Source: a virus
Direction: 5' to 3' (one strand)
Virus record (IMG/VR): IMGVR_UViG_3300034073_004189
Span: 1 to 22,676 of that record
Length of the DNA: 22,676 bases
The notes under the pieces: model-generated
What the model was told of the DNA's origin: nothing
Databases searched by the model: none
What the model saw: the letters and a program-made list of their open reading frames with translations, nothing else
In this document: piece after piece, positions 998 through 17,637 of the stretch
How the letters are laid out: each line of letters begins with the position of its first letter
Position numbering within the stretch: the stretch's first letter is position 1
Position numbers and translations under genes: made by a program

Positions 998-3900
998 TCA
1001 AAGACCTTTCCCATTGTCGACGCCATTTTTTATTTGTTTAAAGGCTGTACCGGGAGCTGCATCTTTCAGTCCAACTTCTGCGTCGGGCATTTGTTTTATG
1101 GCACCGATCAACGTATTTATTCTTCCTTTAATCTTCGAATTGCTTGCTTCTAATATGGCGCCTTCGAGTTTGGTCGCATCGATCGCAACTGTAAAGTTTA
1201 CATTTATCGTTACGTCTTTCGCAGAAACCACGTGTTTACCTGAACTTCCCAATGCAGAACCGAAGTTTGCCTTAAATTTATCTAAGGTCGTTTTAAGATT
1301 TATATTATGCGCCTTTGAAAGCGCTGCGTCAATTTGAGTTACTGCATTCACCATGTCGTTCATGGCTTTTAACGTTGGAGTCAATGCAGAATCTATCGTC
1401 ATTGTTACTTTCGACGCTAATGCAGTTAAATTATTTAGAGCTCCAATCACTTCCGTGGTAGACAACGAAGTTTTTAAGAAAGTTGTAATTGATTTTAACG
1501 CGTCGGTTATTGGTCCGTAACTTTCAGGAACCATCGACAAGTGATATCCAAGACCATGATAACGATCCCCCGCAGCGGTGTTCAATTTCCAGATTTTGAC
1601 GCCTAAATCTTCGCTGAATGCTTTTACGCCAACGTCTCCCAATTTGTCAATTGATTCCAATAGTTCAATAAAATTCCTAACAGACCCTAACACCTTAGTG
1701 CCGGCGTCGCCGGGAATTAAATTCGCTATAATATTTGCGCTGGCAACGATCGGCTCGTAATATTCAGGAACGAGCGACAAGTGGTAATTTAGACCATGAC
1801 CGGGCGTTCCGGCAACGATGTTCAATTTCCAGATTTTAACAGCCAAATCTTCTTTGAAAGATTTTTCGCCAATGTCTCCTATTTTTTGTATATAATCCAA
1901 CAAATCGACGAATTGCTTTGTTGATTCTACTATTTTCGCATTTTGACCTTGCAACAGAGCGCCCAGTCTTGATAGAGCGCTAACGATCGGTGCCATTGCA
2001 GCAGGTACTCCATTCAAAGCGCTAGCGATCGAGTTTGCATTTTGATTAAATTCTTGTATCTTTTTATCTACACCTTTTGCCTTATCTGCTACGTCAGCGA
2101 GATTTGACATTTGCTGTAGCATGTTGCTCACTTCGCCTGCAGGTAAGTTCGGCACTTTTGGCGGTACTTGCGCTTGTGGCGCAACTTGTGGCATGTTCGT
2201 GATTTCATCTTGAGCTGCAGAAACAGCGTCAGTCATAACATCGCCTGTCTTTTTTGGTATTTCGTCCATCGAAATAAACATACCTTCGACGATTTGATCG
2301 CCTATTTTCATGAACACCTTCGAAGGCGAACCTATTTTGAAGATTTTTCGTGCTATATCAATGACTGCTTTAAATGGTCCAAAGTCTGCAATTTCCCCTA
2401 GCGCATTTTTAATACCCTCAACGATTCCTTTAAAAATATTAAAAAATGTTTCTCCTGAGAACAACGCAATAAGTCCATCTTTAAAATCAGTGAAAAACTT
2501 TAGAGCGCTCTCTGGGAATTCTCCTAGGGTCTTTAAAATACCAGTGACCATATCGTCACCCATTTGTGACATCAATTTCGATGGAGACGCTATCCCAAGA
2601 AAAATCTTGATATCATTTATCGGCGTTGTAAATTTTTCGACAATTTTTTCTTTAAGAGCCTTTAAACCGTCTAGCAGACCGTCTAACATTTGTCCGCCTA
2701 GCTTTTTGAAATTTTGAAAAGTAAAGTTTTCCTTAAGCCAATTCCACGCATCTTTTGGACCTTGTAGGATTTGCTTAAAAGCTTCTTTTACCGTCTCTAT
2801 GCTACTAGTAAAGGCCTTAACTGTTGCGTCCCATTTGTCTTTCATGTTTTCCATGAAAGATTTTTTGGTATCCCAAGAGAATATTATGTTAAATAATTTT
2901 CTGATTAACCTGTACGGTTCTTCGACAACTTTGACGATAGACCTGAACCACCCAAACAACTTACTAAAGAATCCTTCGCCACTACTTTCGCCACTTGAAA
3001 AAAACTTCGTCATCCAACCCCAGGCGTCCTTAAACCATTGAGTCACATTGATACTTTTCAAAAGTTCTTGGAATTTACCAAACAACCCAGCTACTGAATT
3101 CCACAAATTACCTATCTTATGAAAGAAATCGCCAATTAACCCAAAGAGAGGACCAAAAATTGGAATATTTTCTAAGGCCTTGAAAATATCTCCTAATTTG
3201 TTATTTAACCAACCAACTAACTTAAAAAATCCTTGAACTAGATAAACACCAAGTTGCAAAATTAATTTTGGTAATTCTGCGTATAACCATATGAATGTCG
3301 AAACAAGAAGATCTAAAATACCTGTTCCTATATCTTTTATAGCTTGATCTATCTTTTTTGAATCGCCGTTCCAAAGTCCAGATATTAAATCGCCTATACC
3401 CCCGAAAACTTGGAACACGGCAGCGGCTCGCATTTTTAAATTGTCTGCCAAGCCAGGTCCGAACCACTCGTCTAATTTCTTTTCTAAAGTAGTTCCTATT
3501 TTCGCGATACTTTCTGCAATAATTCCTTGCGCCTTTTCTGGTATCAACCCAAACGTAAGCGTGTTAATAAGTCCCGTAGTACCGGCGGCGATCTTCGCTG
3601 TTGCAGGATCAAAACCCTTCTTTTCTAAATCGTCGCCATATTTTCTAATCGCCGCGCCAACATCAACGGCAGCCGTTGCGACAGCAGCGACAATTGCGGC
3701 TTTTCCTAAGAATTTACCCACGTTGGATGACATAAATTGACCAACGCTGCCTGCTGCCTTGTTCATCGACAATCCAATTTTAGTCCACATGCCTGCTGCG
3801 GCAGGTGCAGCTGTCGTGGCAGTGGTAGTTGTGGCAGTTCCAATTACCTGACCCATATTATTAGTAAGCACCGTTGTCGAAGTCGAAAGTGCTTGATTTA

Positions 3901-6283
3901 CTACAGGTCCAGTAAACGCAGAAGACACCATACTTGCGATGCCTTTACCCAACGCTGCGGTTCCTGCTCCCAACAATGTTCGACCCACTATAGGGCCAGC
4001 GAAATATAATAACATTGGTGCCCAATGGTCTTTTACGAAGGCTTTTACTTTATCCCTCAGGAAATTAACAAGTTTATCGAACAACAAACTGAACATTTCG
4101 CTCAATGCTGGTGATAATTCCTTCCAGCCATCTCTGAATGCCGTAGCAATTGGATTGATATATTCTTGCGCTGCATCGCCAATCTTTCCAGCTCCTGGTA
4201 CTTCAGTCGGGTTTTTAATAAAATTAACGATGCCTTTAACCATATCGGTAATTGTCGACAAAACCCAACTTACTCCGCCCGCTATGATAACACGAATGGC
4301 CATCATTATTTTAGAAAAGCCACCCATTACCCTCTGCCCTGCTCCCTTTTCAGAATTAAAAAAATCAAAGAATTTTTCTTTTAATCTCTCCATCAACTCC
4401 GGAAAAGACGCTTTACCTGTTTCTAAATCTTTGAAAAACTGAATAAAAACGTCGGTAACGCCGTTCGCTAATTTTCTAAATTTTTCTGGCCGAAATAATT
4501 CGGCTAATCCACCGAGAAAATCTTTCACACCAGGAAAATATTCGACGAAAGCTTTTCCTAATCGCACACCAGCATGGTAGACTTCCATTAATGAACGACG
4601 AATGTTGATCATCAATTCTTGCATCTCTTTGGTCCTCATGATGCCATCGGTGAAACCTTTTACGAATTGATCGAAAAATCCTCCTTGCATAGCTGAACCT
4701 GATTTCAAAACCCTGTCCATTGAATCAGCGAGTTTGCTCATCGCTTCGGCTTGAGACATCTCCTTCTTTTCAGCTTTATCGCCTTCTTTTCTTAACTTGT
4801 CTAAAGAAACACCTCTATTCTTGGACGAGAATATTAATTTTTGTTCGGCGTCGTCGAGATTGGTCAATGACTTCACCAATGACCTTTGGGCCATTGTCAT
4901 TTTTTCGCCATCGATACCTGCTCTTGCAAATTCCTTGCGCAATTGTTCAATTCTTTCAGCAGGATTTTCGGCATTGACCATCTTCATTGCATCGATGCTA
5001 GTGCCAAAGACCTGATTTAACGTTGAAACTTTATCGGCAGCTTCATCAAAAGTCTGGAACGCATCCATTACGCCTGTCACTTTGTCAAGTTCGACGCCCA
5101 ATTTGCGGAAATACGTTACGGCGACACCGACTTGTTTTGCTGACATGCTGCCGAAATTTCTAACGTCGGCAGTTGCCTTAAACATATCTTTGGAGATTAA
5201 TTTGGCGCTTACACCAAATTGTTTACCAAGATGTTGAGATTGCTTCGTTATATCAATTAAATTTTTGGTTAATGACGTACCTGTTGCCTGCGCTTGTCTT
5301 GCGAGCGCACCCATTTGTTCATCGGTAGCCCCCAAGCCCTTTTGGAACCCAAGAATTGCTCCACCATTTTTGTCAAATTCTTCTGTAAATCCTTGTAGCG
5401 CTGCACCACCCGCTACGAAAAGTTCCTTAAAACGTTGTACACGCTCGGCGGCATTTCCGAACACTCGCATGGCGTTTAAACCTGAATCTGCAAATCCATT
5501 CATGTTTTTGGCGCCAGAAATAATTGTTTTATTTAACGGTTCTTGTAATGATCCAAACTCTTTTCTTAGATCATTCAGCGCTTGAGCCCATTCGCTAACG
5601 CCTCCACCGCCTTGTTGCGCTAGACCGATTAAGCCATTAAATAATTTAAACGGTATGCTTAAAATAGAAGTGCCAATCGAAAATAAACTCTTCGCAATAG
5701 TCTTTGCGAATCCAAAAAATCCTTTTCCAAGTGCAACAACATTTTTGAAAGATTGACGTAATCCGCTAAGTGCTCCGAGCGCTGCTCCTGCTGCAATTGG
5801 GAATTCGTCTTGCAAATAATCTCCAATAGCCTGGAGCTTTCTTTTTGCATTCAATGCATCTTTACCAGTTTTTGTTAATTTGTCGCGTAATTGTTCGTAG
5901 CTACTTTTACTCTCTTCAGCTTTTTTTGCAGCTTCAGCTGTTGCATCTGATAATTCGCTTGTAGAACTGACCGCAATTAGTGCGCCTTCAGATATTGCGT
6001 CGAAAGTTGCTTTAGACGTCGTGTTTAAGTTTTGAAGAGCGACTAAAACCTCTTTCAAGGTCGCATTCACTTGCACGAGTTGATTTACAAGCTCGCCCGT
6101 GCTCATGTTTTTCATGTTCTCTGCCATTTGGGCAGATGCTTCGGCTTGTGACTCGAACGATGAAGAAATTCTATTGCTATAATTCATCATCTGATTCATC
6201 AACGCGACCATCTGAGACGCTGCTGACAAATCTTCTTTCTTGGGTCCTACTCCTTTCCCTTTTCCTTCTTCGCCGTTAGCCAT
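998..6283 (-). CDS. Tail tape-measure protein
   Basis: At 1761 residues this is the longest gene in the window. It lies downstream of tube and chaperone-like genes, the standard place for a tape measure, whose length sets tail length and which fills the tube lumen. The N-terminal 160 residues are Ala/Gln/Glu-rich and probably coiled coil. Hydrophobic stretches follow at about 162-225, 765-805 and 860-885, typical of tape measures that help DNA cross the host membrane. Two SPSK motifs, each followed by an M(G)xIGDQ-like segment, lie near residues 1232 and 1320; such motifs recur in tape measures. Residues of about 1440-1600 contain a tandem duplication of 80 residues. I see no clear lysozyme or peptidase domain. 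The start ATG has a modest GGTGA site 6 nt upstream and follows the 99-residue gene by 22 nt. Long genes of this type with this context are rarely anything else. Confidence 0.93.
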   Translation of the reverse strand: MANGEEGKGKGVGPKKEDLSAASQMVALMNQMMNYSNRISSSFESQAEASAQMAENMKNMSTGELVNQLVQVNATLKEVLVALQNLNTTSKATFDAISEGALIAVSSTSELSDATAEAAKKAEESKSSYEQLRDKLTKTGKDALNAKRKLQAIGDYLQDEFPIAAGAALGALSGLRQSFKNVVALGKGFFGFAKTIAKSLFSIGTSILSIPFKLFNGLIGLAQQGGGGVSEWAQALNDLRKEFGSLQEPLNKTIISGAKNMNGFADSGLNAMRVFGNAAERVQRFKELFVAGGAALQGFTEEFDKNGGAILGFQKGLGATDEQMGALARQAQATGTSLTKNLIDITKQSQHLGKQFGVSAKLISKDMFKATADVRNFGSMSAKQVGVAVTYFRKLGVELDKVTGVMDAFQTFDEAADKVSTLNQVFGTSIDAMKMVNAENPAERIEQLRKEFARAGIDGEKMTMAQRSLVKSLTNLDDAEQKLIFSSKNRGVSLDKLRKEGDKAEKKEMSQAEAMSKLADSMDRVLKSGSAMQGGFFDQFVKGFTDGIMRTKEMQELMINIRRSLMEVYHAGVRLGKAFVEYFPGVKDFLGGLAELFRPEKFRKLANGVTDVFIQFFKDLETGKASFPELMERLKEKFFDFFNSEKGAGQRVMGGFSKIMMAIRVIIAGGVSWVLSTITDMVKGIVNFIKNPTEVPGAGKIGDAAQEYINPIATAFRDGWKELSPALSEMFSLLFDKLVNFLRDKVKAFVKDHWAPMLLYFAGPIVGRTLLGAGTAALGKGIASMVSSAFTGPVVNQALSTSTTVLTNNMGQVIGTATTTTATTAAPAAAGMWTKIGLSMNKAAGSVGQFMSSNVGKFLGKAAIVAAVATAAVDVGAAIRKYGDDLEKKGFDPATAKIAAGTTGLINTLTFGLIPEKAQGIIAESIAKIGTTLEKKLDEWFGPGLADNLKMRAAAVFQVFGGIGDLISGLWNGDSKKIDQAIKDIGTGILDLLVSTFIWLYAELPKLILQLGVYLVQGFFKLVGWLNNKLGDIFKALENIPIFGPLFGLIGDFFHKIGNLWNSVAGLFGKFQELLKSINVTQWFKDAWGWMTKFFSSGESSGEGFFSKLFGWFRSIVKVVEEPYRLIRKLFNIIFSWDTKKSFMENMKDKWDATVKAFTSSIETVKEAFKQILQGPKDAWNWLKENFTFQNFKKLGGQMLDGLLDGLKALKEKIVEKFTTPINDIKIFLGIASPSKLMSQMGDDMVTGILKTLGEFPESALKFFTDFKDGLIALFSGETFFNIFKGIVEGIKNALGEIADFGPFKAVIDIARKIFKIGSPSKVFMKIGDQIVEGMFISMDEIPKKTGDVMTDAVSAAQDEITNMPQVAPQAQVPPKVPNLPAGEVSNMLQQMSNLADVADKAKGVDKKIQEFNQNANSIASALNGVPAAMAPIVSALSRLGALLQGQNAKIVESTKQFVDLLDYIQKIGDIGEKSFKEDLAVKIWKLNIVAGTPGHGLNYHLSLVPEYYEPIVASANIIANLIPGDAGTKVLGSVRNFIELLESIDKLGDVGVKAFSEDLGVKIWKLNTAAGDRYHGLGYHLSMVPESYGPITDALKSITTFLKTSLSTTEVIGALNNLTALASKVTMTIDSALTPTLKAMNDMVNAVTQIDAALSKAHNINLKTTLDKFKANFGSALGSSGKHVVSAKDVTINVNFTVAIDATKLEGAILEASNSKIKGRINTLIGAIKQMPDAEVGLKDAAPGTAFKQIKNGVDNGKGL
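1501..1980. repeat. Tandem 240-nt duplication inside the tape-measure gene
   Basis: Two adjacent segments offset by exactly 240 nt (80 codons) resemble each other in DNA and protein. Matching landmarks are 1531-1558 against 1771-1798 (both end in AGACCATG) and the shared GTTCAATTTCCAGATTTT near 1580 and 1820. In protein, both copies contain VKIWKLN, then HGLxYHLSxVPExYxPI. The in-frame period and the DNA-level similarity point to a fairly recent duplication that has been kept in frame. Copy boundaries are approximate. Confidence 0.85.
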
Positions 6284-6647: not shown

Positions 6648-6929
6648 TTAAGTGAAACGTCTTAAACGACTAGGCGAATGAGTTCTCGATTGTCCTTGTA
6701 ACGCGCGAACATCGGGACTATTCTGATGAAGCGCCTTCGATTGGGTATGACCCTCTTCAGACGTTCGAGATAGTTCTTTATTAATTCTTTCTATAAACCA
6801 ACGTTTATATGTTACCGGTAAATTATAGACTTCTCTCCAAAGGAACCCGCCATAATACATTAAGGCGAAGGCAGGTTCCAGGATTATAGCCTCTTTATCT
6901 TCCGGCCGAAGGCCAAAGAAAGTTGACAC
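6648..6929 (-). CDS. Probable tail-assembly chaperone partner (gp51-like position), overlaps gp26-like gene
   Basis: This frame encodes 93 residues and overlaps the 3' end of the gp26-like gene by 35 nt in the +1 frame. The core is a hydrophobic and aromatic helix-like region (ALMYYGGFLWREVYNLP followed by a Trp/Phe/Arg-rich stretch), and the tail is basic and Ser/His-rich. In T4-like phages a small protein follows gp26, and many tailed phages place two overlapping chaperone frames just before the tape measure; this pair fits that pattern. The nearest start is GTG at 6927-6929. The best Shine-Dalgarno, AGGAGG at 6945-6950, is 15 nt upstream, farther than normal, so coupling to the upstream gene or ribosomal frameshifting are alternatives. 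The frame is open upstream to 6986. I am confident that it is translated, less so how it starts. Confidence 0.75.
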   Translation of the reverse strand: MSTFFGLRPEDKEAIILEPAFALMYYGGFLWREVYNLPVTYKRWFIERINKELSRTSEEGHTQSKALHQNSPDVRALQGQSRTHSPSRLRRFT

Positions 6930-7770
6930 CGAGCGGCATCGGGACCTCCTCTGAATGACCGCAAACAGAGCAAGACGTTTCTTGTTTCATTACAACACCA
7001 GGTTCGTTGTCCCTAATATAATTTCTCAACGCTAGAGAATCAGACGCGGGCATATTTTTAATAAAATTAGCGATCTTAGAGCGATCCTCAATACCGTCTA
7101 CCGAAACGATTGCGTACAACAAATTAGTCGTCACATTCGACTCAGACCTCATACCCAATTTCTTTTGCTTCTCTTGGGTAGTAACCATCTCCTCCTCGTC
7201 TCGTCCAGTCAAGAAACGGAACTTTACATTTTTCTTAGTACGTGGCAAAACGAATTCAAACAAATTTGATCCTGGAACAACCGGTTCAATTTCCAAACGC
7301 TTGATTGGTAATTCCGCTAAATTAAATTCGTGCTGAGATTTATTGTTGCAATCAGGACATTCTAGTTCCGCGCCATACTCAGGTCCATACCCTGTAATAC
7401 GGATCGCAACCATCAACGCGTTGCGGTCACCGCCTAAAAGATCAACGGGATTAATGTTGCGATCGACCAAGCAAGACTTAATTAACTCAGTAATAACTGT
7501 TCCTTTTTTGATTAAAGCACGTGATGTAAGAATATCTTCTTCACGAGCAGTCATGGGACGAATCTCAACGCTATCAACACCATATAGCGAAGACCCTTGA
7601 GGATAAACCTTACCCGAAGAAGGCAAAGGCACAGTTTCTAGTGGTATATCGAGACCGAACTCGGCTTTAACCTTCTCGGCAGCTGATTGCACTGGCATCC
7701 TTGGATCTACACCCACTGGTAAAGGTTGTCCCGTAAAAACTGCATTGCGATCGCGATTCTCTGTGCTCAT
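6895..7770 (-). CDS. T4 gp26-like baseplate hub/tape-measure chaperone protein
   Basis: The 291-residue product carries motifs I associate with the T4_baseplate family (T4 gp26 and marine relatives): LPSSGKVYP near 49-57, RPMTAREEDIL at 71-81, LIKSCL near 96-101, GDRNALMVAIRITGYGPEY near 114-132, and a C-terminus ending in VNFLWP. Two CxxC pairs (Cys138/141 in CPDC and Cys267/270 in CSVC) probably bind one zinc ion. In T4 this protein is needed for baseplate hub and tape-measure assembly. The ATG is preceded by AAGGA at a normal distance. Its last codons overlap the next gene in a different frame. It follows the tube gene across an insertion that holds two unrelated genes. The family call is from recalled motifs; the position before the tape measure supports it. 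Confidence 0.82.
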   Translation of the reverse strand: MSTENRDRNAVFTGQPLPVGVDPRMPVQSAAEKVKAEFGLDIPLETVPLPSSGKVYPQGSSLYGVDSVEIRPMTAREEDILTSRALIKKGTVITELIKSCLVDRNINPVDLLGGDRNALMVAIRITGYGPEYGAELECPDCNNKSQHEFNLAELPIKRLEIEPVVPGSNLFEFVLPRTKKNVKFRFLTGRDEEEMVTTQEKQKKLGMRSESNVTTNLLYAIVSVDGIEDRSKIANFIKNMPASDSLALRNYIRDNEPGVVMKQETSCSVCGHSEEVPMPLGVNFLWPSAGR

Positions 7771-7883: not shown

Positions 7884-8276
7884 ATGTCGTTTAATTCATA
7901 CCCTCACGAAGGCTTCGTCGCAGCTTATCAAATTTCTGCAACACCATTCGTTACATCGTCTAATCTTCCTGCCGGCCAAACTCAAGAAATTTATTTTGGC
8001 TCTGTATCTAGATTTTTAACTATAAAAAATACAGGCGGAATTTGGACAACTATCGCTTTTGGATTTTCAAAAAATGGCGTAAATTCTTCGTCTAATTATT
8101 TCGTCCTAAGCGGTTCTGAATCTTTTACAGCGGAACTTAGAACAGATAGAATATTCGTTCGAAATCTATCGCAACACCATGTAACGACGTTCAGCGCGAT
8201 CGCTGGCTTGACAGCGATTCCTTCTCAAAATTTTATGGCTCTCACGGGTTCCAACGGATACCCCGGCGTAGGATGA
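7884..8276 (+). CDS. Small probable virion protein on the opposite strand
   Basis: The 130-residue product lies on the plus strand inside a minus-strand tail module. It is rich in Ser, Thr, Phe, Gly and Asn with alternating hydrophobic residues, suggesting an all-beta fold, and ends GSNGYPGVG. It has no cysteine, signal peptide or membrane segment. The composition is that of a small virion decoration, head-fibre or tail accessory protein, but I cannot name a family with certainty. The ATG has no recognisable Shine-Dalgarno (upstream is AACAAACTAACAAT), so initiation may be leaderless or rely on AT-rich unstructured mRNA. Its last 35 nt overlap the convergent endonuclease gene. The long open frame and balanced protein-like composition support a real gene. 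Confidence 0.8.
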   Translation: MSFNSYPHEGFVAAYQISATPFVTSSNLPAGQTQEIYFGSVSRFLTIKNTGGIWTTIAFGFSKNGVNSSSNYFVLSGSESFTAELRTDRIFVRNLSQHHVTTFSAIAGLTAIPSQNFMALTGSNGYPGVG

Positions 8277-9072
8277 CATCCTCCTCCACGTGCAGAGAAT
8301 CATGGCACGGGATGCACAGAGGGGTCCCAGGAATATTCTGTTCAATGTGGTAGTTGGTAACCCACTCGGATATTTGGGATTTAACCAGGAAAGATTCTCC
8401 TGGTTCTCCAAACAATTCTACCGCCTTGTGGAGGATGGTGGCGAAACGCTCGCCACTGTGGTGGACCTCCAGGTCTTCCGTAGAACCACATTTGGCGCAC
8501 TTGAAACCTCCCTCTTTCAACTTGGGAAAGGTCCAACGACTATATAGATGGGAACGAACGAGGGGTTGCAAGGCAGATGTGCCGCCTTTCCAATGTGGAT
8601 GAGAAGAACCTGTGAGAAGCACAATAGCGCCTGTTTGCCACGACAATTTCATACTAAAAGATCTAGCTTGCTTAAAACTTTTTGATCCATAAGCTCTTTC
8701 TGCTATTTCAGCAAATTCAGGATCATTTTCTTTTGTTTTTCCTCGATTCCACGGATCTTTATTCCACAATCCTTCATCACGTCTTTTCTTGAGGCTTTTA
8801 GTTTGTGCTTCTTTATTATGCCCCCAGTTGTTGTGCACTCGAGAAGCGTGTCCTAGAATGTACTCTGAGAATCCTTTTTGAAGTGTCAAGAACTTTGTGG
8901 TCTCGCCACAGCCACATGCGCAAGTCGGTTCTTTGCCTTCAGGTAAAAACAATAGAGCGTATAACTTTTTTGTGGGAAGATTGTGCTTTTTTTGGCAATG
9001 AATTCGAAGAGAATCCAATTTGCTAGACCCGTAATCGCTACAAACAGGGCATTTAAAAGAAGAAAGGTCCAT
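8242..9072 (-). CDS. HNH homing-type endonuclease with N-terminal zinc finger
   Basis: The 276-residue product has three parts. Residues 8-30 form a C2H2-like finger (CPVC then HCQKKH). Residues of about 50-85 hold a CACGCGE motif and GHASRVHNNWGHN, a module I recall from many phage HNH proteins. The C-terminal nuclease has HPHWKGG, then CAKC, the catalytic-type LEVHH, and a closing CIPCHDSLH, matching a zinc-supported HNH site with its key His and Cys residues intact. Such free-standing enzymes nick or cut DNA near their insertion site and spread between phages. It separates the tube from the gp26-like gene. The 3' half is visibly more GC-rich than the 5' half (34 of 60 bases G/C at 8281-8340, 21 of 60 at 8701-8760), suggesting a chimaera. 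The start codon lies inside a hairpin. Confidence 0.9.
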   Translation of the reverse strand: MDLSSFKCPVCSDYGSSKLDSLRIHCQKKHNLPTKKLYALLFLPEGKEPTCACGCGETTKFLTLQKGFSEYILGHASRVHNNWGHNKEAQTKSLKKRRDEGLWNKDPWNRGKTKENDPEFAEIAERAYGSKSFKQARSFSMKLSWQTGAIVLLTGSSHPHWKGGTSALQPLVRSHLYSRWTFPKLKEGGFKCAKCGSTEDLEVHHSGERFATILHKAVELFGEPGESFLVKSQISEWVTNYHIEQNIPGTPLCIPCHDSLHVEEDVILRRGIRWNP

Positions 9073-9120: not shown

Positions 9121-9612
9121 TCAAAACTGCAGCACGCAATTGTCGAAGCGGAGTGTCATGGAGATTTCCATTGGGCCGCCGTCTTCGTAGGTGACTTCAC
9201 CGAAGTTGGCCTCGGTGATAAACGCGCCTTTGATGTCCCAGAGCTCCACCACGGTACCGACAGGATCGAGAAGCTTGAGTTGGATGTCGCGCTTGTAGAA
9301 GTCAGCGTAACCTGCGCGGCCGGAAACCGATTCAAAGTGGGTACGTACCCATTCCATGACCTGTTGCGCGCCAGATGGAGCGATTGGATCGTGTAGGGTT
9401 ACTGCGATTGTACCGAAGGTCGTCTTACCAGCAAGATATCTACGCGAATTGATGAATGGAACTTCAACTTCTTCTGTCGATATCGTTGGACGAGCTGTTG
9501 TTTTAATGATGTATGCATCAATACCTTCGATCATGAGTATCCAGCGGTTCTTGCGCTTCGGCTCAAACTTATTTGGAATCATCGATGTAACGTCTAATGT
9601 CTCTGCGGCCAT
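9121..9612 (-). CDS. Tail tube protein, T4 gp19-like
   Basis: The 163-residue product has the length and layout of T4 gp19-type tube proteins: an N-terminal segment with FEPKRKNRWIL, then alternating beta strands, with GDxxxx-free core motifs such as YADFYKRDIQLKLLDPVG and a C-terminal FGEVTYEDGGPMEISMTLRFDNC. Hexameric rings of this protein stack to make the inner tube that carries DNA and encloses the tape measure. AGGAG lies 9 nt before the ATG. Placement shortly after two sheath genes is the classic sheath-tube order of contractile tails. The gene is intact, and its base composition is more GC-rich than the neighbouring endonuclease 5' half. The assignment is secure in kind; the exact family is from memory. 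Confidence 0.93.
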   Translation of the reverse strand: MAAETLDVTSMIPNKFEPKRKNRWILMIEGIDAYIIKTTARPTISTEEVEVPFINSRRYLAGKTTFGTIAVTLHDPIAPSGAQQVMEWVRTHFESVSGRAGYADFYKRDIQLKLLDPVGTVVELWDIKGAFITEANFGEVTYEDGGPMEISMTLRFDNCVLQF

Positions 9613-9673
9613 GGTTTTATTCTCCTGTCACCTTTTCTAAATATAATTGTGTATTCAAAAATTATTGATTAAA

Positions 9674-10033
9674 TCAACGGTTAGCTCCCAAGTTCCGTCG
9701 TCTTCGTTCGTCGTAGTAAGCCTCCGTCTCGGCGAGGGCATCCTCCAAGTAGTCGTCGAGTTCTGAATTGTAACCCGTGAGGATGTCGTGCAGGTCCTGC
9801 ACTTGCTCCAGGGTCACGTTTTCTCCCCTGCCTTCCAAGACGGAGTCAAGGACTTTTCTCAAATCGAGAGGAAGATCCATGTATGCCTTTGCGAACTCCA
9901 CCATGTCATATCTGGAGGTGTGCGACATACCAGGAACCGCCGCCTCCAGGAGACGCCTGTTCTGACGTTCTAGGAGGGCGGATGAAATCTCTTCGTTAAT
10001 AAGGTCTGTTAACTGTTGGCGTGTTATTTTCAT
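9674..10033 (-). CDS. Small helical protein with capsid-targeting-like N-terminus
   Basis: The gene encodes 119 residues. Its ATG is 7 nt after the stop of the second sheath gene, so the two are translationally close, and the tube gene follows after 61 nt. The N-terminus MKITRQQLTDLINEEIS is an amphipathic helix of a kind repeated at the front of many phage virion proteins and reminiscent of T4 capsid-targeting sequences; LINE and LLE match the LxE-type sites cut by T4-like prohead proteases. The remainder is acidic and helical, ending in an Arg-rich RRRRNLGANR tail. It might be an internal head protein processed during maturation, or a tail-assembly factor. No function is established. Confidence 0.75.
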   Translation of the reverse strand: MKITRQQLTDLINEEISSALLERQNRRLLEAAVPGMSHTSRYDMVEFAKAYMDLPLDLRKVLDSVLEGRGENVTLEQVQDLHDILTGYNSELDDYLEDALAETEAYYDERRRRNLGANR

Positions 10034-10040
10034 TTAAATC

Positions 10041-13000
10041 TCACTGATTTACGTTGTTGGACACCACGAAGTCGAGGCTGACGAACTCGATGCTCTTTGT
10101 CGGTTGAACAAAGATCTTACCACGAACTGTGTTGTTCTCGACGTCGGTTTGAGTTGTCGTCGAAGAATCGATGATGACGCGGAATCTCTCGAGACCTGCG
10201 AGCGCTTGGATTCTCTGGAGACGTGGGGTAACGGCGGCAGAGAAACGAGCGAGGGTTGCTTCGCGATTTTGTTCGAAGAGAATTGTGTTTGCGATCTCGC
10301 GGACTTGACGACGAATCTCGATGAGAAGACGTCTAACGTTTACGCGATCAAGAGCAGATGCTGCGATTTGTAACGTCTTTTGTCCCCAGATTACGATACC
10401 TGATGCTGGATTCGTTCCACTCTTGGGAGCTGGTGTGAATGCAACAAGCGGATTGATTCTCTCATCGTATAGAGGATCTAGGTCCGTGTCATATAGTGGT
10501 GTTCTAGCTACAAGCGCTGCAGTTGGTAATGCACCGCGAGTAAAACCTGCTGGAGCGAACCAGGGATGACCGACGGCATCATTAAGCGACATAGCGCCAA
10601 GAACGAGTGCAGAAGGTGGAATTACGACGTTGACGCCATCTGGTGCTTCGTATAATACGTCTGGGAAGTAAGCTGCAGAGAACGAAGAATCGATATTTCT
10701 GTCTCGGAAACTTGATATTGTATTGGATACGTTAACCAAAGTAGTATCCGAGCGAACCTCGTCTTCTGCTCCTGTGCCATCTTCGTCATATTGTTCGATG
10801 TCCATGATGTAAAGCGCATCGAATCTTTCTTCGGTTGCGACAGTCGCATAGTCTGTCACTATAGGATGACGAAGTCCAGGAATGGTCAACAATTGAATAT
10901 CGACGTTGGTCGTGTTCTTCATAATGTCAATTGCCTTGATATAAGCCTTGACGTTTGGACCTTCGTTGAGTAAACGATCGTTTCCGTATATCATATCCGA
11001 AGAAACTGCGTTGTTCGTAATGTTGAACTCATCGCGATCAAAGACGTTAACGCCATTGAAACCGCCTTGGAGGAACATTGTGAACTTTGCGAACGTACGA
11101 TTTGAGTTCTCTGAAAGATCTGTTGTCTTAAAGGCGCGAGTCTTATTAGCCTCGTTAGCCTCTATTACACCGGTTCTAACATAAACTGCTTCATCCCATT
11201 CAAGCGTGTTAGCTTTTCCATTAGAACCAGTTACAACCTGAACATGCTCAAGGCTAAAGAGATTGTTGCAGAATCTATCAGCATCAACAATACCATTTTC
11301 GGCCGTGTCGGCTGCGCCAGTATTATCGCCGACAAGGACGGGCTTTACAGTCGTAGAGAAGTCAGGGAAGTACTTCGCGAATGCGGAGAGCGAAGCATTC
11401 TTTTGATTGCTGGCATTCGGTTTTGTAATCGTCTCGACTTGTTCAAATTGCGCGCCCCAATAGAACTTGGAGTTTGCTGTCTCAGTCTCGCTATCGACAA
11501 CGCCATCTGTAACCTTCTTGCGGAATGGAACTGGCGGTTCTACTACCTTGCGTAATACATCGAGGTCGGTTAAACCACCGTTGGCTGCGTATAGATCGTC
11601 TACGACGTCTGGCAATTGCGGGAACACTGCCGAACCTGACGTCATAAGGTGTGCAACACCTCTAAAGCCCATCGGTAGCGCTGTTGGATCTACGAAGCCA
11701 TTCTCAACGTCAGGAGCTACCTCTACGCGAATGTAGTTAGAGTTGTTGGAATAATTTCCGTCTATCACAATCTTTTGCTCTTCGATATCTCTATCGAAGT
11801 CATGGTAAACGTGAAGATCGCCAATTACCTTAGCTATATAACGATCAGACGTTGGGTTGAGATCGCAAACGAAGCTTTCTCCCGTTGCGATTAAGGATTG
11901 TGTTGAATCTCTATCGTCCCACTTTCTAACCTTTACAGTGAAGGAACCATATCTGTTATTAGCGTCTGTCGATAAGGTGATATCTTCGATCGAGATCTTG
12001 TAGAGAGTTGAAACGTCTTGACCCGCATCAAGTGCATGGAACTTGAATAGATTTACGGGCTTACCACCAAACTTTTGAGAAATAACCCATGGAGATTTGG
12101 CGTGACTGAAACGATCTTGGAAGCTTTCGAAATTTGGCACTGTAGAAGTACCAACGTTGTATGCTTGTGAGGAAGTTAACAAGAATGCGGAAGTCTCAGT
12201 ACCTGTCTTACCAAAGTGAGATGCAGCGTTTGCACCGTGCGTTCCTGATAGTATACCAACGCCAGTTACAACGCCGACAGAAGGATGAATATCCCAGTGA
12301 GTATAGAGATAATGTCCGGCTTCTTGAAGCTTGAATGGATCGCGGTTAAGAACATTCGCAAAGTAGTTATTAGCTGTCGGATCAAAAGACGCAGTTAATA
12401 CGTTTGGATAATTTACGTCTGTTCCTTTGTGTCCATTGAGCAATAACACGAAATCTTGCTTGGATATCGAATTCTCTGTCAACACGACAGAACCGATAGT
12501 TGTACCAAGCGGTGAAGCTGCTGTAGAACCAACTTGAGTCGAAGCAGGTGCCGATGACACGGCACCACCCAAGGAAGAAGACAGTCTTAACAAAACGCCA
12601 GAAGCTGCCATAAGGACGCCTCTAACGATTGGCGCCGCCTTATTTTGTCCGGAGACTTGTAGACCAGCATCACTAAAGTGAGTTGAACCAGCCGATTCAG
12701 ACATCAAACAAGATAGGAAGTATGTTCTACCTGGTTGTCCGTTGGAATTGGCGTATGGATTTTCGCTTAATGCTCCAAGAGAACCATATGGTTGCTTTTC
12801 ACCGACAACAAAGCCGGCGTTAGTAACAGAACCTGGATATGCGCCGGATGCGCCTTGTCTTTCCAAACCATCACCAACGCCGAGTACGCGTAGATATGTT
12901 ACAGCTTGCGCATTACGCAACCACTCTAAAACGGCTATTGGACCGAAGTGTTTGCTATCCACTGAACCAAACTTTGCTTCGAAATCCGAAAGTCGACCAA

Positions 13001-13142
13001 CGGTGATTGGTACGAAAGCTGGTCCTTGTTTCGCTGTACCAATAACACCCGCGGGGACGCCAACTGGTTGTGTTGTTACAGGACCGGAAATGTCTATTTC
13101 GTTTGCTGTTACGCCTGCTGCGCCAAGTTTTAATTGTGCCAT
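10041..13142 (-). CDS. Tail sheath protein, second paralogue
   Basis: The 1033-residue product is a contractile sheath subunit. The N-terminal region has the sheath-type GVPAGVIGTAKQGPAFVPI segment at about 26-46. The conserved core includes HPWFAPAGFTRGAL near 860-885 and WGQKTLQ followed by ALDRVNVRRLL near 915-940. The end has the beta-rich IFVQPTKSIEFVSLDFVVS that forms the inter-subunit mesh in sheaths. It is far longer than T4 gp18 (659 residues), so the outer domains are expanded. It is clearly related to the adjacent gene at 13195-16266 over N-terminal, middle (GGFxGVNxxDRD) and C-terminal motifs, but diverged in the outer region. A GGAG site precedes the ATG, and a 12-bp palindrome AACTATATAGTT lies in the 52-bp gap between the two genes. 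Sheath polymerises around the tube and contracts to drive it through the cell envelope. Confidence 0.95.
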   Translation of the reverse strand: MAQLKLGAAGVTANEIDISGPVTTQPVGVPAGVIGTAKQGPAFVPITVGRLSDFEAKFGSVDSKHFGPIAVLEWLRNAQAVTYLRVLGVGDGLERQGASGAYPGSVTNAGFVVGEKQPYGSLGALSENPYANSNGQPGRTYFLSCLMSESAGSTHFSDAGLQVSGQNKAAPIVRGVLMAASGVLLRLSSSLGGAVSSAPASTQVGSTAASPLGTTIGSVVLTENSISKQDFVLLLNGHKGTDVNYPNVLTASFDPTANNYFANVLNRDPFKLQEAGHYLYTHWDIHPSVGVVTGVGILSGTHGANAASHFGKTGTETSAFLLTSSQAYNVGTSTVPNFESFQDRFSHAKSPWVISQKFGGKPVNLFKFHALDAGQDVSTLYKISIEDITLSTDANNRYGSFTVKVRKWDDRDSTQSLIATGESFVCDLNPTSDRYIAKVIGDLHVYHDFDRDIEEQKIVIDGNYSNNSNYIRVEVAPDVENGFVDPTALPMGFRGVAHLMTSGSAVFPQLPDVVDDLYAANGGLTDLDVLRKVVEPPVPFRKKVTDGVVDSETETANSKFYWGAQFEQVETITKPNASNQKNASLSAFAKYFPDFSTTVKPVLVGDNTGAADTAENGIVDADRFCNNLFSLEHVQVVTGSNGKANTLEWDEAVYVRTGVIEANEANKTRAFKTTDLSENSNRTFAKFTMFLQGGFNGVNVFDRDEFNITNNAVSSDMIYGNDRLLNEGPNVKAYIKAIDIMKNTTNVDIQLLTIPGLRHPIVTDYATVATEERFDALYIMDIEQYDEDGTGAEDEVRSDTTLVNVSNTISSFRDRNIDSSFSAAYFPDVLYEAPDGVNVVIPPSALVLGAMSLNDAVGHPWFAPAGFTRGALPTAALVARTPLYDTDLDPLYDERINPLVAFTPAPKSGTNPASGIVIWGQKTLQIAASALDRVNVRRLLIEIRRQVREIANTILFEQNREATLARFSAAVTPRLQRIQALAGLERFRVIIDSSTTTQTDVENNTVRGKIFVQPTKSIEFVSLDFVVSNNVNQ

Positions 13143-13194
13143 CTACGATGCTCCGTTCTATGCTAACTTAACTATATAGTTCAACTCAAATTTC

Positions 13195-16100
13195 TCACAC
13201 GAACTGTACGCCCGCGTTCGTTACGATGAAGTCAATCGCGATGTATTCGATTGATCTCGTCGGGACGATTACGATTCTACCGTTTAGACGATTGAGATCG
13301 ATGTCCTCTTGCGTATTGTTTGTCTCGTTCATTACAACCTGGAATGCTTCGATGCCAGCTTGCGCTTGAATTAATCCGAGTTGGAATACCGAATCGGACA
13401 CGAAACGATTTCTAACTGCTGGCGTGTTTTGTTCGAACACGATTCTGTTCGCGATGCCAATGATTATGCGCTTAACTTCGAGAAGAAGTCGACGAACATT
13501 GACACGGTCGAGAGCAGACTTACTAACTTGCAGCGTCTTTTGACCCCAGATTACGAAACCGAGTCTTGGGAATGTTGCGATCGGATTGATGCGCGAATCG
13601 TAGAGACGATCACGATCTCCAACGTTGAGACGTACCGCGACATTGGTCACGAAGTCAAGAGCTGCGCGATTGAAACCTGCAGGCGCGAACCAAGGATAAG
13701 ATACCCTGTCGTTAAATCCTAGCGCTCCAATAGCTGCTACTGTTGCAGGAACCTTTACGCGGCGAACATTCGTTGTATCATCGACGAATACATCAGGGAA
13801 GTATGTTGCAACGTAGTTATTATCGATTGCTCTTGCGTCGAAAGCATCAACGGTTTCTTTAACGCTTGGTTTTGATGTCGAATCGTCATACAAGCGATAA
13901 CCGTCATCATTGTATGCTGGAATATCCATTAGATGCAATGCAAGACCATAATCTCTAACTTTCTTAGAAGTTAGATCGTTGATATACGGTTCTCTTATGC
14001 CCGGTACTGCCAAAACGTTAATTCCGACGATGTATGGATTTGTCATAATGTCAACGGCGGTGTTATATGAAGCAACACCGTTGTTAGACTTTCCGGTACC
14101 GTTAACTGCAGAGCCGAAACCAAGCGCTGTATAGTTTGAGGCTGCGCCACCAGTTGATAACACGTCCGAATCGAAAGACACAGATTTGTCGTTTAGACGA
14201 CGTGAGTCGCGATCAAGATAGTTAACGCCATCGAAGCCACCATACATGAATGTTGTGAACTTCGCGAATTGCGAGAAACGATTGAAGCTTGCTGCAGTCG
14301 TCTTAGCTAACAAAGTAGCTAATGTTACACGATTATTAACGACGCCATCAGACACCGAATAATCATTAGAATCTGGCTTCGCGTTTCTAATATAAGCTGC
14401 TTCCTTCATGTGTGCAGATGCAGAACCAGTAACATCGTTGATCGATGTATTGCTGAGCGCAACCTTGGCAAGCGAGAACTTGTTGCTGTTGAACGAATCG
14501 ATGTTAGATCCTGTATGAAGGGCATCAAGTTTTTCGATACCCGCGAACATCGTCAATGAATCTAACAATCCGTTCTTTTCGGTGATAACGTTTGGATTTA
14601 AAACTTCGTTGTCTGTAGAAGAAGCGTTGCGTTCAAACTTGACGCCCCAATACAAGGCGGGGAGTGTTACTTCCTTCGTACCTGGTGCGCCAGCGATCGA
14701 GCTCAAGGTCGAAACCTCTCCGCGCGTTACCTTGTAACGATATGGAATAGGGGGTAATATTGAACCAGATAATTTGTGATCTGCTGCTAAACCAACGCCG
14801 CCGAGACGACCCGCACCAGGAGCAATAGCAGCGAGGGCATTTAGGTTATTATTTGTCTTTAATAATTTCGGTCCATGGAAACCGAAGGGTAATGCTGTAT
14901 CAGGTATTAACTTCTTTTCTACCTTTTCATCAACAACAACTCGAATATACTTGGAATTGTTTGGATACTTGCCCGCTGTTATTAAGCGACGTTCTTTTGG
15001 ATTAATTGCATCGAAATGATAATAGACCTTTAGATCGCCTACTAGCTTAGCAACATAATTGTCAGAATCAGGGTCTAATGTACAATTTGTAAATTGTTCA
15101 ATGATTACTGGGCTAATATCGCTATCATCCCATTTTCTGACCTGAAGATTAAATGTACCATACTTGTTGGTTGAATCTGCCGATGCCTTAATATTGGCGA
15201 TGGAAATCTTATAAAGTTTATTAGCGTATTCACCATCGTCAAGAGCTTCGATCTTGAAAAGATCGTATTCTGTCTTACCGAATGGTTGCGAAATGAACAT
15301 CGGGGTTTGTGGCGCCGTGAAACGTGTGTTAAAGGAACCAAAAATTTCACGATAAGTAAGAGTTGGGTCGCCTGAAGAGCTATCTGTCAAAGCAGAACCC
15401 GATAACATCGCAACATAGTTGTCGGCTGCGACGCTAGCTACTTGTGAATCAACTGCAAAATCTGCAGCCAAGAAATGTTGTTCTGTATAAAACTTATCAG
15501 GATCTCTATTTAATATCTTTCCGAAATAATCATCAGCGGAAGGATCAAAAGACGCTGTTAAGATTTTTACGCCTACTTTTCCTTCATCGTTCGCGAACGT
15601 TGAACCTAACGAAGAAGATATAACAATTTTGAACTTTGACGAACCGTTAACTGATTTTGCTTGAGCTTGATCGTCAATCGTAGCTATTGATGTTCCTACA
15701 GGCGCTGCTTCATTACCGTCAAGTACATATGCTTTCGCTGTATTGGGAAGCATCAACATACCACGAATTAAGTTTACTTCGCTGCCTGCAGAAATACCTG
15801 GGAACGAATCGTTGTCCGAAAACATTGGCATACCATAGGCTTCGTTCGTCGAAACAGTATGCTGAGCTGCAATAAATTGAACAACCTTGTTATGACGAGA
15901 ATCTGCTTCCGCGACGGTACCTGGAAGCGAAAATCCCGCATTCCTTACGGTACCTTTTACACGGGTGTCGTCAAAGTCTGCTAACGTTTCGCTGGAACCT
16001 GCTCCAAGAACCCTTAGATAGGTTAAAGATGTACGATTCTTTAAAAATTCGTTTACGGCGTAAGGTCCAAAGTATTTGGTGTCTAAATCGCCAAATGTCT

Positions 16101-16266
16101 CTACGAACTCATTAAAGTTTGCAAAGGTAACTGGTACGAAAGCTGGTCCTTTATTTGAGGGTCCCACTACGCCAGCAGGGGTACCGACTGGTCCACCTAC
16201 TGTTGGTGCTGAAAGATCAATTTCACGCTCATAAAAATTTGGAGATCTAAAAACTTGCTCGGACAT
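13195..16266 (-). CDS. Tail sheath protein, first paralogue
   Basis: The 1023-residue product shares length and motif order with the next gene: GTPAGVVGPSNKGPAFVPV at about 28-46, GGFDGVNYLDRD in the middle, YPWFAPAGFNRAAL near 855-875, WGQKTLQ plus ALDRVNVRRLL near 905-925, and a C-terminal IVIVPTRSIEYIAIDFIVT. These are features of contractile sheath subunits. The start ATG follows AAGGAG at 7 nt and an upstream ATGTAA that is too short to matter. Two sheath genes in tandem are unusual in phages, though several phage-tail-like injection systems carry two or three sheath paralogues that build different parts of one sheath. Both copies are complete, so neither looks like a decayed duplicate. 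The upstream gap contains a sequence element shared with the gp15-like gene. Confidence 0.95.
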   Translation of the reverse strand: MSEQVFRSPNFYEREIDLSAPTVGGPVGTPAGVVGPSNKGPAFVPVTFANFNEFVETFGDLDTKYFGPYAVNEFLKNRTSLTYLRVLGAGSSETLADFDDTRVKGTVRNAGFSLPGTVAEADSRHNKVVQFIAAQHTVSTNEAYGMPMFSDNDSFPGISAGSEVNLIRGMLMLPNTAKAYVLDGNEAAPVGTSIATIDDQAQAKSVNGSSKFKIVISSSLGSTFANDEGKVGVKILTASFDPSADDYFGKILNRDPDKFYTEQHFLAADFAVDSQVASVAADNYVAMLSGSALTDSSSGDPTLTYREIFGSFNTRFTAPQTPMFISQPFGKTEYDLFKIEALDDGEYANKLYKISIANIKASADSTNKYGTFNLQVRKWDDSDISPVIIEQFTNCTLDPDSDNYVAKLVGDLKVYYHFDAINPKERRLITAGKYPNNSKYIRVVVDEKVEKKLIPDTALPFGFHGPKLLKTNNNLNALAAIAPGAGRLGGVGLAADHKLSGSILPPIPYRYKVTRGEVSTLSSIAGAPGTKEVTLPALYWGVKFERNASSTDNEVLNPNVITEKNGLLDSLTMFAGIEKLDALHTGSNIDSFNSNKFSLAKVALSNTSINDVTGSASAHMKEAAYIRNAKPDSNDYSVSDGVVNNRVTLATLLAKTTAASFNRFSQFAKFTTFMYGGFDGVNYLDRDSRRLNDKSVSFDSDVLSTGGAASNYTALGFGSAVNGTGKSNNGVASYNTAVDIMTNPYIVGINVLAVPGIREPYINDLTSKKVRDYGLALHLMDIPAYNDDGYRLYDDSTSKPSVKETVDAFDARAIDNNYVATYFPDVFVDDTTNVRRVKVPATVAAIGALGFNDRVSYPWFAPAGFNRAALDFVTNVAVRLNVGDRDRLYDSRINPIATFPRLGFVIWGQKTLQVSKSALDRVNVRRLLLEVKRIIIGIANRIVFEQNTPAVRNRFVSDSVFQLGLIQAQAGIEAFQVVMNETNNTQEDIDLNRLNGRIVIVPTRSIEYIAIDFIVTNAGVQFV

Positions 16267-16296: not shown

Positions 16297-16324
16297 GATT
16301 AAATATCTTGCAAAAAGTGATAAA
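16297..16324 (-). promoter_or_regulatory. Candidate phage promoter element upstream of the first sheath gene
   Basis: On the minus strand TTTATCACTTTTTGCAA (16308-16324) ends 41 nt before the sheath ATG and is followed directly by GATATTTAATC. A near copy with 15 of 17 bases identical lies upstream of the gp15-like gene at 17686-17702. Similar distance from the start codon suggests a shared regulatory element, possibly a late promoter. No activity is shown by sequence alone. Confidence 0.4.
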
Positions 16325-16341: not shown

Positions 16342-17637
16342 TTACGAAGTCGTTATCTTAAGACCCTGGAAATCTGCTGCTGAATAAACAGTTTCTCCCG
16401 TGGCTTGATTGACATTAACAATCTTTACATATTTAAATTCATTTCCATTTCCTATCTGGATTTTTTGATATTGATTTGGAAACACCCCTCTTGGGTACGA
16501 TGTCAACGCAGGATCATTACCACCATCGTTTTCTTGTGCGTTCGATGGTTGAACTACTTGTTGGCGCCAACCAGGTCTACGTTGATCATTTCTTGCATTC
16601 GTTTGCTCATCAAGCGGTAAAGTCGGATCGTCATTTCCTAACAAGTAGCTATTTGGAAACTCTTCTGGTCCCGTGGCGTCTTTAACTGATCTATTTTCAA
16701 CTTCAAAGTTAATAACGGGCGACGAAACATATCGTTTTACTGGAATAGGTACACCTGGTGCTGTAGAAGCCCAAACGTATGCGGGTACCTTAACGTCGAA
16801 CGTACATTTTATAAATCTTTCAGATGTCGACATGTCTTCAAAGTTGGTTTCGACATTATACGCGCCGTTATCTAATTTTGCTACGAACCAATAACCCTTT
16901 GTTGTTGTTAACTTCCACGAGTTTGTTTGTGGAAGATAGGACGACATTATTTTTTCCAAAATTTGATTCATGTGCTGGGTAAAATGTGTCCAAATGGTTA
17001 CGCTATATGTTGCTGTATAAAACTGGGGCGATGGTACGACGATCGTTTCGAAAATATTGTTTTTTCTATTCGTTAATAACAGCGCACCGCGAACATTGTC
17101 GAAGTCATCGCTTAAATCACCAGTTTTTCTTCCTGTAATAAATTCATTACTTAAAGAATATTGCGAACCACTCGTTACAGCAACATTTGCTTGATTTAAT
17201 ATCAACTGGCGATTTATTAAATTTTGATAATCTCTGTCAGATTTATCTAACCTACGTCTTACGACGATTTCACCCGTCTGTTGATTGATACCTCTACTTG
17301 TAATATCATCAGGAGCTTGAGATACGCTGGTTCGCATAATCGTTATAAGAGGTAAGATCAAAGTATTGTTTCTATCCCTCAGTGGACGACCTCGTTTTAA
17401 CATCGCCCATTTTTCACCCGCTGCGAAAACTATAGGAACCCGTTTTAGTTCCTGTGTGTCTTTACCTCCAGCGCTGGGCGCTATTTCTTTGTCGAATAAT
17501 GTAAATAAAGCTACATCAACGTCTTCTAATCCGCAAGGTGGAATCACCAAATCAGATCTAATGTTACCATCATATCCCGATTTGACGCCAGGTACGTTAA
17601 AGTTGACTTGGTCTACGGCATTAAATCGAGTTGTCAT
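16342..17637 (-). CDS. Tail terminator / sheath stabiliser, T4 gp15-like
   Basis: The 431-residue product shows the pattern I recall for T4 gp15. An N-terminal ALFTLFDKEI is followed by the strongly conserved-looking LKRVPIVFAAGEKWAMLKR, then LILPLITIMRTSV. Centrally there is PSPQFYTATYSVTIWTHFTQ and HMNQILEKIMSSYLP, matching gp15's short Pro-rich strand, a tyrosine-rich strand and QILPYF-type helix. The region CTFDVKVPAYVW resembles the closing strand of the fold. The C-terminal 120 residues are an Asn/Gln/Pro-rich extension. In T4, gp15 caps the finished tail, stabilises the sheath and binds the neck. Here it directly precedes the sheath genes, as gp15 precedes gp18 nearby in T4. An AAGGA site lies upstream of the ATG. 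The family call is by memory of motifs, without alignment. Confidence 0.72.
   Translation of the reverse strand: MTTRFNAVDQVNFNVPGVKSGYDGNIRSDLVIPPCGLEDVDVALFTLFDKEIAPSAGGKDTQELKRVPIVFAAGEKWAMLKRGRPLRDRNNTLILPLITIMRTSVSQAPDDITSRGINQQTGEIVVRRRLDKSDRDYQNLINRQLILNQANVAVTSGSQYSLSNEFITGRKTGDLSDDFDNVRGALLLTNRKNNIFETIVVPSPQFYTATYSVTIWTHFTQHMNQILEKIMSSYLPQTNSWKLTTTKGYWFVAKLDNGAYNVETNFEDMSTSERFIKCTFDVKVPAYVWASTAPGVPIPVKRYVSSPVINFEVENRSVKDATGPEEFPNSYLLGNDDPTLPLDEQTNARNDQRRPGWRQQVVQPSNAQENDGGNDPALTSYPRGVFPNQYQKIQIGNGNEFKYVKIVNVNQATGETVYSAADFQGLKITTS

Follow-up and report, generated by a model that had tools for sequence, protein, structure and literature searches.

A clade of large T4-like phages carries two tail sheath genes in tandem, and our analysis suggests that both products enter the same sheath. 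The best reading is probably a sheath with two genuine components around a single tube, where most phages use one kind of subunit: we estimate at roughly 0.75 the probability that the two proteins, A and B, both form one sheath around a homomeric tube and contract together, and we infer that both are present in the same virion. The DNA studied here (the window, i.e. the whole stretch that was analysed) is a phage fragment of 22,676 bp, IMG/VR virus record IMGVR_UViG_3300034073_004189.

Two complete sheath genes in a T4-type tail block

The tail block of the window contains the following genes.

16342..17637, minus strand: tail sheath stabiliser (T4 gp15-like), directly upstream of A (Pfam PF16724, E=1.5e-10; conserved synteny)
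13195..16266, minus strand: sheath paralogue A, complete, 1023 aa (PHROG 23, E=1.3e-50)
10041..13142, minus strand: sheath paralogue B, complete, 1033 aa (PHROG 23, E=1.7e-46; Pfam PF17482 above cut-off)
9674..10033, minus strand: small gene, 119 aa, between B and the tube gene, present in only some relatives (e.g. L021, L031, L091, L109)
9121..9612, minus strand: single tail tube gene (T4 gp19-like), 163 aa (PHROG 4542, E=1.2e-31)
6895..7770, minus strand: T4 baseplate/hub-like protein, downstream of the tube gene (PF12322, E=2.9e-17)
998..6283, minus strand: tape measure protein, 1761 aa (PHROG 5493, E=1.2e-22)

The earlier note had described two complete tandem sheath paralogues of about 1000 residues, each about 1.5 times T4 gp18. 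This was borne out by two intact and adjacent open reading frames with a gap of 52 bp, and with T4 gp18 at 659 residues the ratio is 1.55-1.57. All the sheath motifs that the note had quoted were found in both proteins and in identical order, namely GxPAGVxG (GTPAGVVG/GVPAGVIG), GGFxGVN (GGFDGVN/GGFNGVN), APAGFxRxAL (APAGFNRAAL/APAGFTRGAL), WGQKTLQ...ALDRVNVRRLL and the closing motif (SIEYIAIDF/SIEFVSLDF). When aligned, A and B were 38% identical across residues 14-1029 (E = 2.6e-151), which at the sequence level is far beyond chance. In the Pfam search of the window proteins B passed the family cut-off of PF17482 and A scored slightly below it.

Structure prediction with AlphaFold2 gave mean pLDDT values of 87.7 for A and 86.6 for B. 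Low confidence was confined to the N-terminal 23-24 residues (a free arm) in the A model, and to the N-terminal arm and a few loop residues (905-927) in the B model. Both models were sheath folds, and the best PDB match found by Foldseek was T4 gp18 in both cases (E=1.1e-20 for A, E=3.2e-19 for B), with the sheath of a Klebsiella T4-like phage also among the best matches of both. By motifs and predicted structure, A and B are gp18-like contractile tail sheath proteins, the group of PHROG 23, PF04984 and PF17482, with the conserved N-/C-terminal core and the full sheath fold.

In downstream order the window reads gp15-like stabiliser, A, B, a small gene, gp19-like tube, an HNH-type gene, a hub-like baseplate protein, two small genes and the tape measure gene, which is the standard T4-type arrangement. 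The order is kept in the relatives, including the gp15-like gene upstream and the gp19-like gene downstream of the sheath genes. Pfam and PHROG searches gave no match for the 119-aa gene. A single tube gene was seen in 85 loci of the synteny survey and a second one in no locus; a tube duplication to match that of the sheath, i.e. a fully doubled tail, was rejected on this ground.

Just past the tube gene, at 9097-9063 on the minus strand of the window, there is a strong 14-pair hairpin with a T-run behind it; the loop region of the hairpin contains a TATATTTA element. HNH-type endonuclease-like genes near the tube gene (window 8242-9072; also L111, L123 and L126) vary in position and strand among relatives, and in relatives of the L111/L123/L126 set a 552-aa HNH-type gene stands inverted between the third sheath gene (C, see below) and the tube gene. 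By analogy, the HNH-type genes around the tube resemble mobile homing genes. At the other end of the window (20443-22611) a 722-aa fibre-like protein with a GTG start is highly repetitive (TINIGTS/TTIGS repeats), may be incomplete, and weakly matches short tail fibres (PHROG 4527, E=5e-12).

One ancient duplication and a third copy

Two trees were made, one of 115 sequences and a second of 57 sequences under a site-heterogeneous model with more outgroups. In both, A and B formed two separate clades (SH-aLRT 100 for the A clade) with the single-sheath proteins outside, which strongly supports a single ancient tandem duplication that preceded the radiation of the clade and was then kept clade-wide. 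The earlier reading of a gene duplication, as opposed to a broken gene, is thereby extended to one old event kept across a phage clade, as indicated by the trees and the survey of relatives. There was no sign of gene conversion homogenising A and B, as A sequences never grouped with B.

The nearest single-sheath relatives, Microcystis phage Mel-JY01 and the IMG/VR contigs L065 and L068, have the same stabiliser-sheath-tube order with a single sheath gene (785-812 aa) and represent the pre-duplication state. The tandem position of A and B is what would be expected of a recent duplicate, redundant or decaying and without function. That explanation is hardly credible, however: the two are only 38% identical, they split before the clade radiated, both genes are under strong purifying selection and no losses were seen; tree, selection and retention led us to reject it.

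In a freshwater subclade a third sheath gene, C, branches from B with a support of 99-100. Three tandem sheath genes are seen in L111, L114, L118-L121, L123, L125, L126 and L130-L133, where the third copy derives from B and its rate of evolution is two to four times higher. L067 also has a third copy, but one that is strongly diverged and lies beyond the tube gene; its placement in the tree is uncertain.

Retention of the pair in large phages

Relatives were collected from scans with A (67 loci, of 211 stretches) and with B (80 loci). At least two tandem sheath genes were found on 103 other IMG/VR contigs (duplicate contigs removed, window excluded), 14 of which carry three, and the median gap from A to B in the relatives was 48 bp. 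The earlier note had held that absence or breakage of one gene in most close relatives would argue against a mixed sheath. We looked for this and found, among over 100 contigs, no A- or B-clade contig that lacked the partner despite having room for it: every such contig with a single visible gene is cut off exactly on the partner's side. On one contig (L085) A is split into two frames, through a sequencing error or else a real frameshift. Among bacterial genome collections, three bin contigs have the pair, L154-L156 (16, 109 and 306 kb); these are probably mis-binned phages, and nearly all the other relatives in the collections are single-sheath.

T4-type gp23 major capsid genes were found in 9 of the 10 large relatives searched, Mel-JY01 included. 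In viral records gp23 stands on the sheath contig itself, and it is also present in both bin contigs L156 and L155. Since the relatives have T4-type capsid genes and contigs that reach 309 kb, the clade consists of large T4-like phages. Several sheath paralogues are typical of PVC and Afp, and in that respect the window could be taken for part of a phage-tail-like particle (an extracellular contractile injection system or a tailocin). The chance of this is next to nil in view of the same capsid genes and contig sizes, and as the relatives' contigs encode capsids, an origin from a head-less particle was rejected. As a host clue we searched the relatives for a photosynthesis gene, and the psbA-type family was absent from them.

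Selection and differences between the paralogues

From pairs of relatives in which both values could be computed, dN/dS was 0.05-0.07 for A, 0.05-0.08 for B, 0.15-0.27 for C, 0.08-0.15 for the stabiliser and below 0.05 for the tube, where the absolute values are rough because many pairs are close to saturation at synonymous sites. These ratios indicate strong purifying selection of similar degree on A and B, and faster evolution of C. The protein identities point the same way: between the window and L005 they were 86% for A and 85% for B.

Invariant positions common to A and B are most concentrated in the core, and both keep the helix ALDRVNVRRLL on the tube side. Sites fixed differently in A and B were weakly enriched in the arms and C-terminal domain, at 11 of 31 against 29 of 164 in the rest of the protein (p = 0.03; we chose the region bounds ourselves). 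The SPG of the N-terminal arm is lost in B, as is the final GxxF in B of the window's clade. In C the arms resemble those of B in most cases and the motifs are relaxed. The A/B differences at the arms and C-terminal domain hint at two partners that recognise each other. Residues 773 and 775 are Y and L in the window A but R and D in B and in every outgroup sheath; on the sequences compared, this is a fixed loss in A of an otherwise invariant R/D pair.

Large insertions, of up to several hundred residues, are mostly in B, where they follow residue 120-165 at a single outer site. Marine B copies of ~1400-1675 aa carry insertions at this outer site (L066 7355-12382, L156 9239-13762, L154 5281-9477, L053, L054 and L058). 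When the large B insertions of the marine relatives were searched for known domains, Pfam matched only the sheath domain.

A common element upstream of the sheath and tube genes

A short element, ATANTTA, precedes the start codons of A, B, C and the tube gene by ~30-40 nt. In the window it was found at three places.

16300..16306, minus strand: ATANTTA element upstream of A (ATATTTA)
13169..13175, minus strand: ATANTTA element upstream of B (ATAGTTA)
9638..9644, minus strand: ATANTTA element upstream of the tube gene (ATATTTA)

Among distinct upstream sequences the element was present in 59/62 for A, 52/60 for B, 10/10 for C and 47/56 for the tube, where shuffles expect 1 to 5, and its background inside genes is 0.65% of 60-nt stretches. 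It is mostly absent upstream of the hub (1/39) and stabiliser (8/62) genes, and in L131 and L117 the genes that carry it are exactly those for sheath and tube. In the relatives that were read it was not found before the major capsid gene, and a general late promoter was set aside for that reason, which left a promoter-like or an RNA-level element. Scans for ordinary sigma-70 promoters and terminators gave no more matches than shuffles. The simplest reading, although not a secure one, is a late-promoter-like signal of the highest-copy tail proteins. With such a signal A, B and C would all be made in quantity, and the best reading is that both sheath subunits are abundant.

A and B are each complete and could in principle build a sheath of their own, and their outer domains differ most; one may therefore ask if they are alternative sheaths, used singly depending on host or condition and never mixed. 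We regard this as very unlikely. The two genes adjoin in one block, in which the terminator scan called none between them, the type of upstream element is common to both, there is one tube, and loss of a single gene was never seen in over 100 contigs, which would be odd for alternatives.

Possible arrangement of two subunits in one sheath

For the two-component sheath, in which A and B would be the two obligatory subunits, we propose the following course of events. Gene 18 was doubled in tandem in a single-sheath ancestor, ahead of the clade's radiation, and the tube-facing C-terminal core was retained in both products. A and B would be made in quantity, each with an upstream element of the tube-gene type, polymerise round one kind of tube and contract together, with the N-/C-terminal arms joining one ring to the next. 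The outer domains in the middle, chiefly those of B, would be free to vary and to accept insertions, and in the subclade a further duplication, that of B, gave rise to the faster-evolving, B-like C.

How A and B would be placed relative to each other is a more tentative matter. We favour regular alternation because of the equal size, equal constraint and common upstream element, and a regular A/B lattice, with alternating rings or alternation within rings set by arm-to-C-domain pairing, comes somewhat short of even odds. Irregular mixing of A and B in the sheath seems improbable. A division of labour as in PVC and Afp, where one paralogue would make up the shaft and the other would be limited to the first baseplate rings or the last neck rings, is doubtful though to be taken seriously. 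In the PDB, injection systems with several sheath paralogues differ in chain count (Pvc2 30, Pvc3 6, Pvc4 6), and a minor role of this kind fits C with its faster evolution and relaxed motifs. A and B, on the other hand, are of equal length in the window's clade and under similar constraint, unlike the PVC paralogues, which differ in size, and both carry the tube-type upstream element that a minor end-ring protein would not need. For C, end-capping is the likelier role.

Comparison with known contractile systems

T4 shares with the clade the gene order (gp15 stabiliser, gp18 sheath, gp19 tube) and the sheath fold, but has one sheath gene of 659 aa against two or three of ~1000 aa. The earlier note had held that a mixed sheath would be a notable variant; a two-component phage sheath is not, however, unprecedented. 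In PaBG, a Pseudomonas jumbo myovirus, two sheath paralogues of ~38% identity were both identified in the virion and ascribed to gene duplication, and this two-protein sheath was described as 'unique' (Kurochkina 2018, cited in PMC7412058); two sheath copies are encoded by some phage genomes (Evseev 2022, PMC9230969). Like PaBG, the window has a pair of full-length sheath paralogues within a single phage genome. The PaBG proteins are, however, ~530-550 aa and not ~1000 aa, their genes, with matches at 46.9-48.2 kb and at 166 kb, are widely separated and not in tandem, and PaBG has two annotated tube genes where the clade loci have one. In the tree PaBG gp76 lies on a long branch among single-sheath phages and not within the A or B clade, and the PaBG duplication appears to be independent of that of A and B.

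A 484-kb uncultured phage (LR756508, L135) has two sheath genes of 824 aa each, ~1 kb apart, at 203-208.4 kb with the stabiliser upstream; in the record they carry no annotation. In the tree both copies are placed near Mel-JY01 and not within A or B, one of them on a long branch. The pair appears to be another, separate duplication, a placement that, as for PaBG, rests on long branches.

The likeness to PVC and Afp drawn in the earlier note is only a loose one. PVC (Pvc2/3/4) and Afp (Afp2/3/4) also have several sheath paralogues in one contractile machine. They have no capsid, whereas the clade's contigs carry T4-type capsid genes, and only distant homology to the sheaths of the clade; Pvc2/3/4 are 355, 440 and 410 aa, unequal and much smaller than A and B, which are equal in size and constraint.

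Meaning for the contractile sheath

As far as we searched the literature, what is new is a clade with a strictly kept tandem sheath pair, a three-sheath subclade and a common upstream element. The contractile sheath has served as the model of a machine made from one protein repeated in a helix, and how homomeric assemblies become heteromeric is a question already asked for proteasomes and other rings. One, two and three sheath genes on one tube offer a natural series for this evolution in symmetric polymers. The clade shows that the two-sheath arrangement is common and stable in nature, beyond the case of PaBG. If true, an alternating A/B lattice would be an ordered two-protein contractile phage sheath on a homomeric tube, later of three proteins in one subclade.
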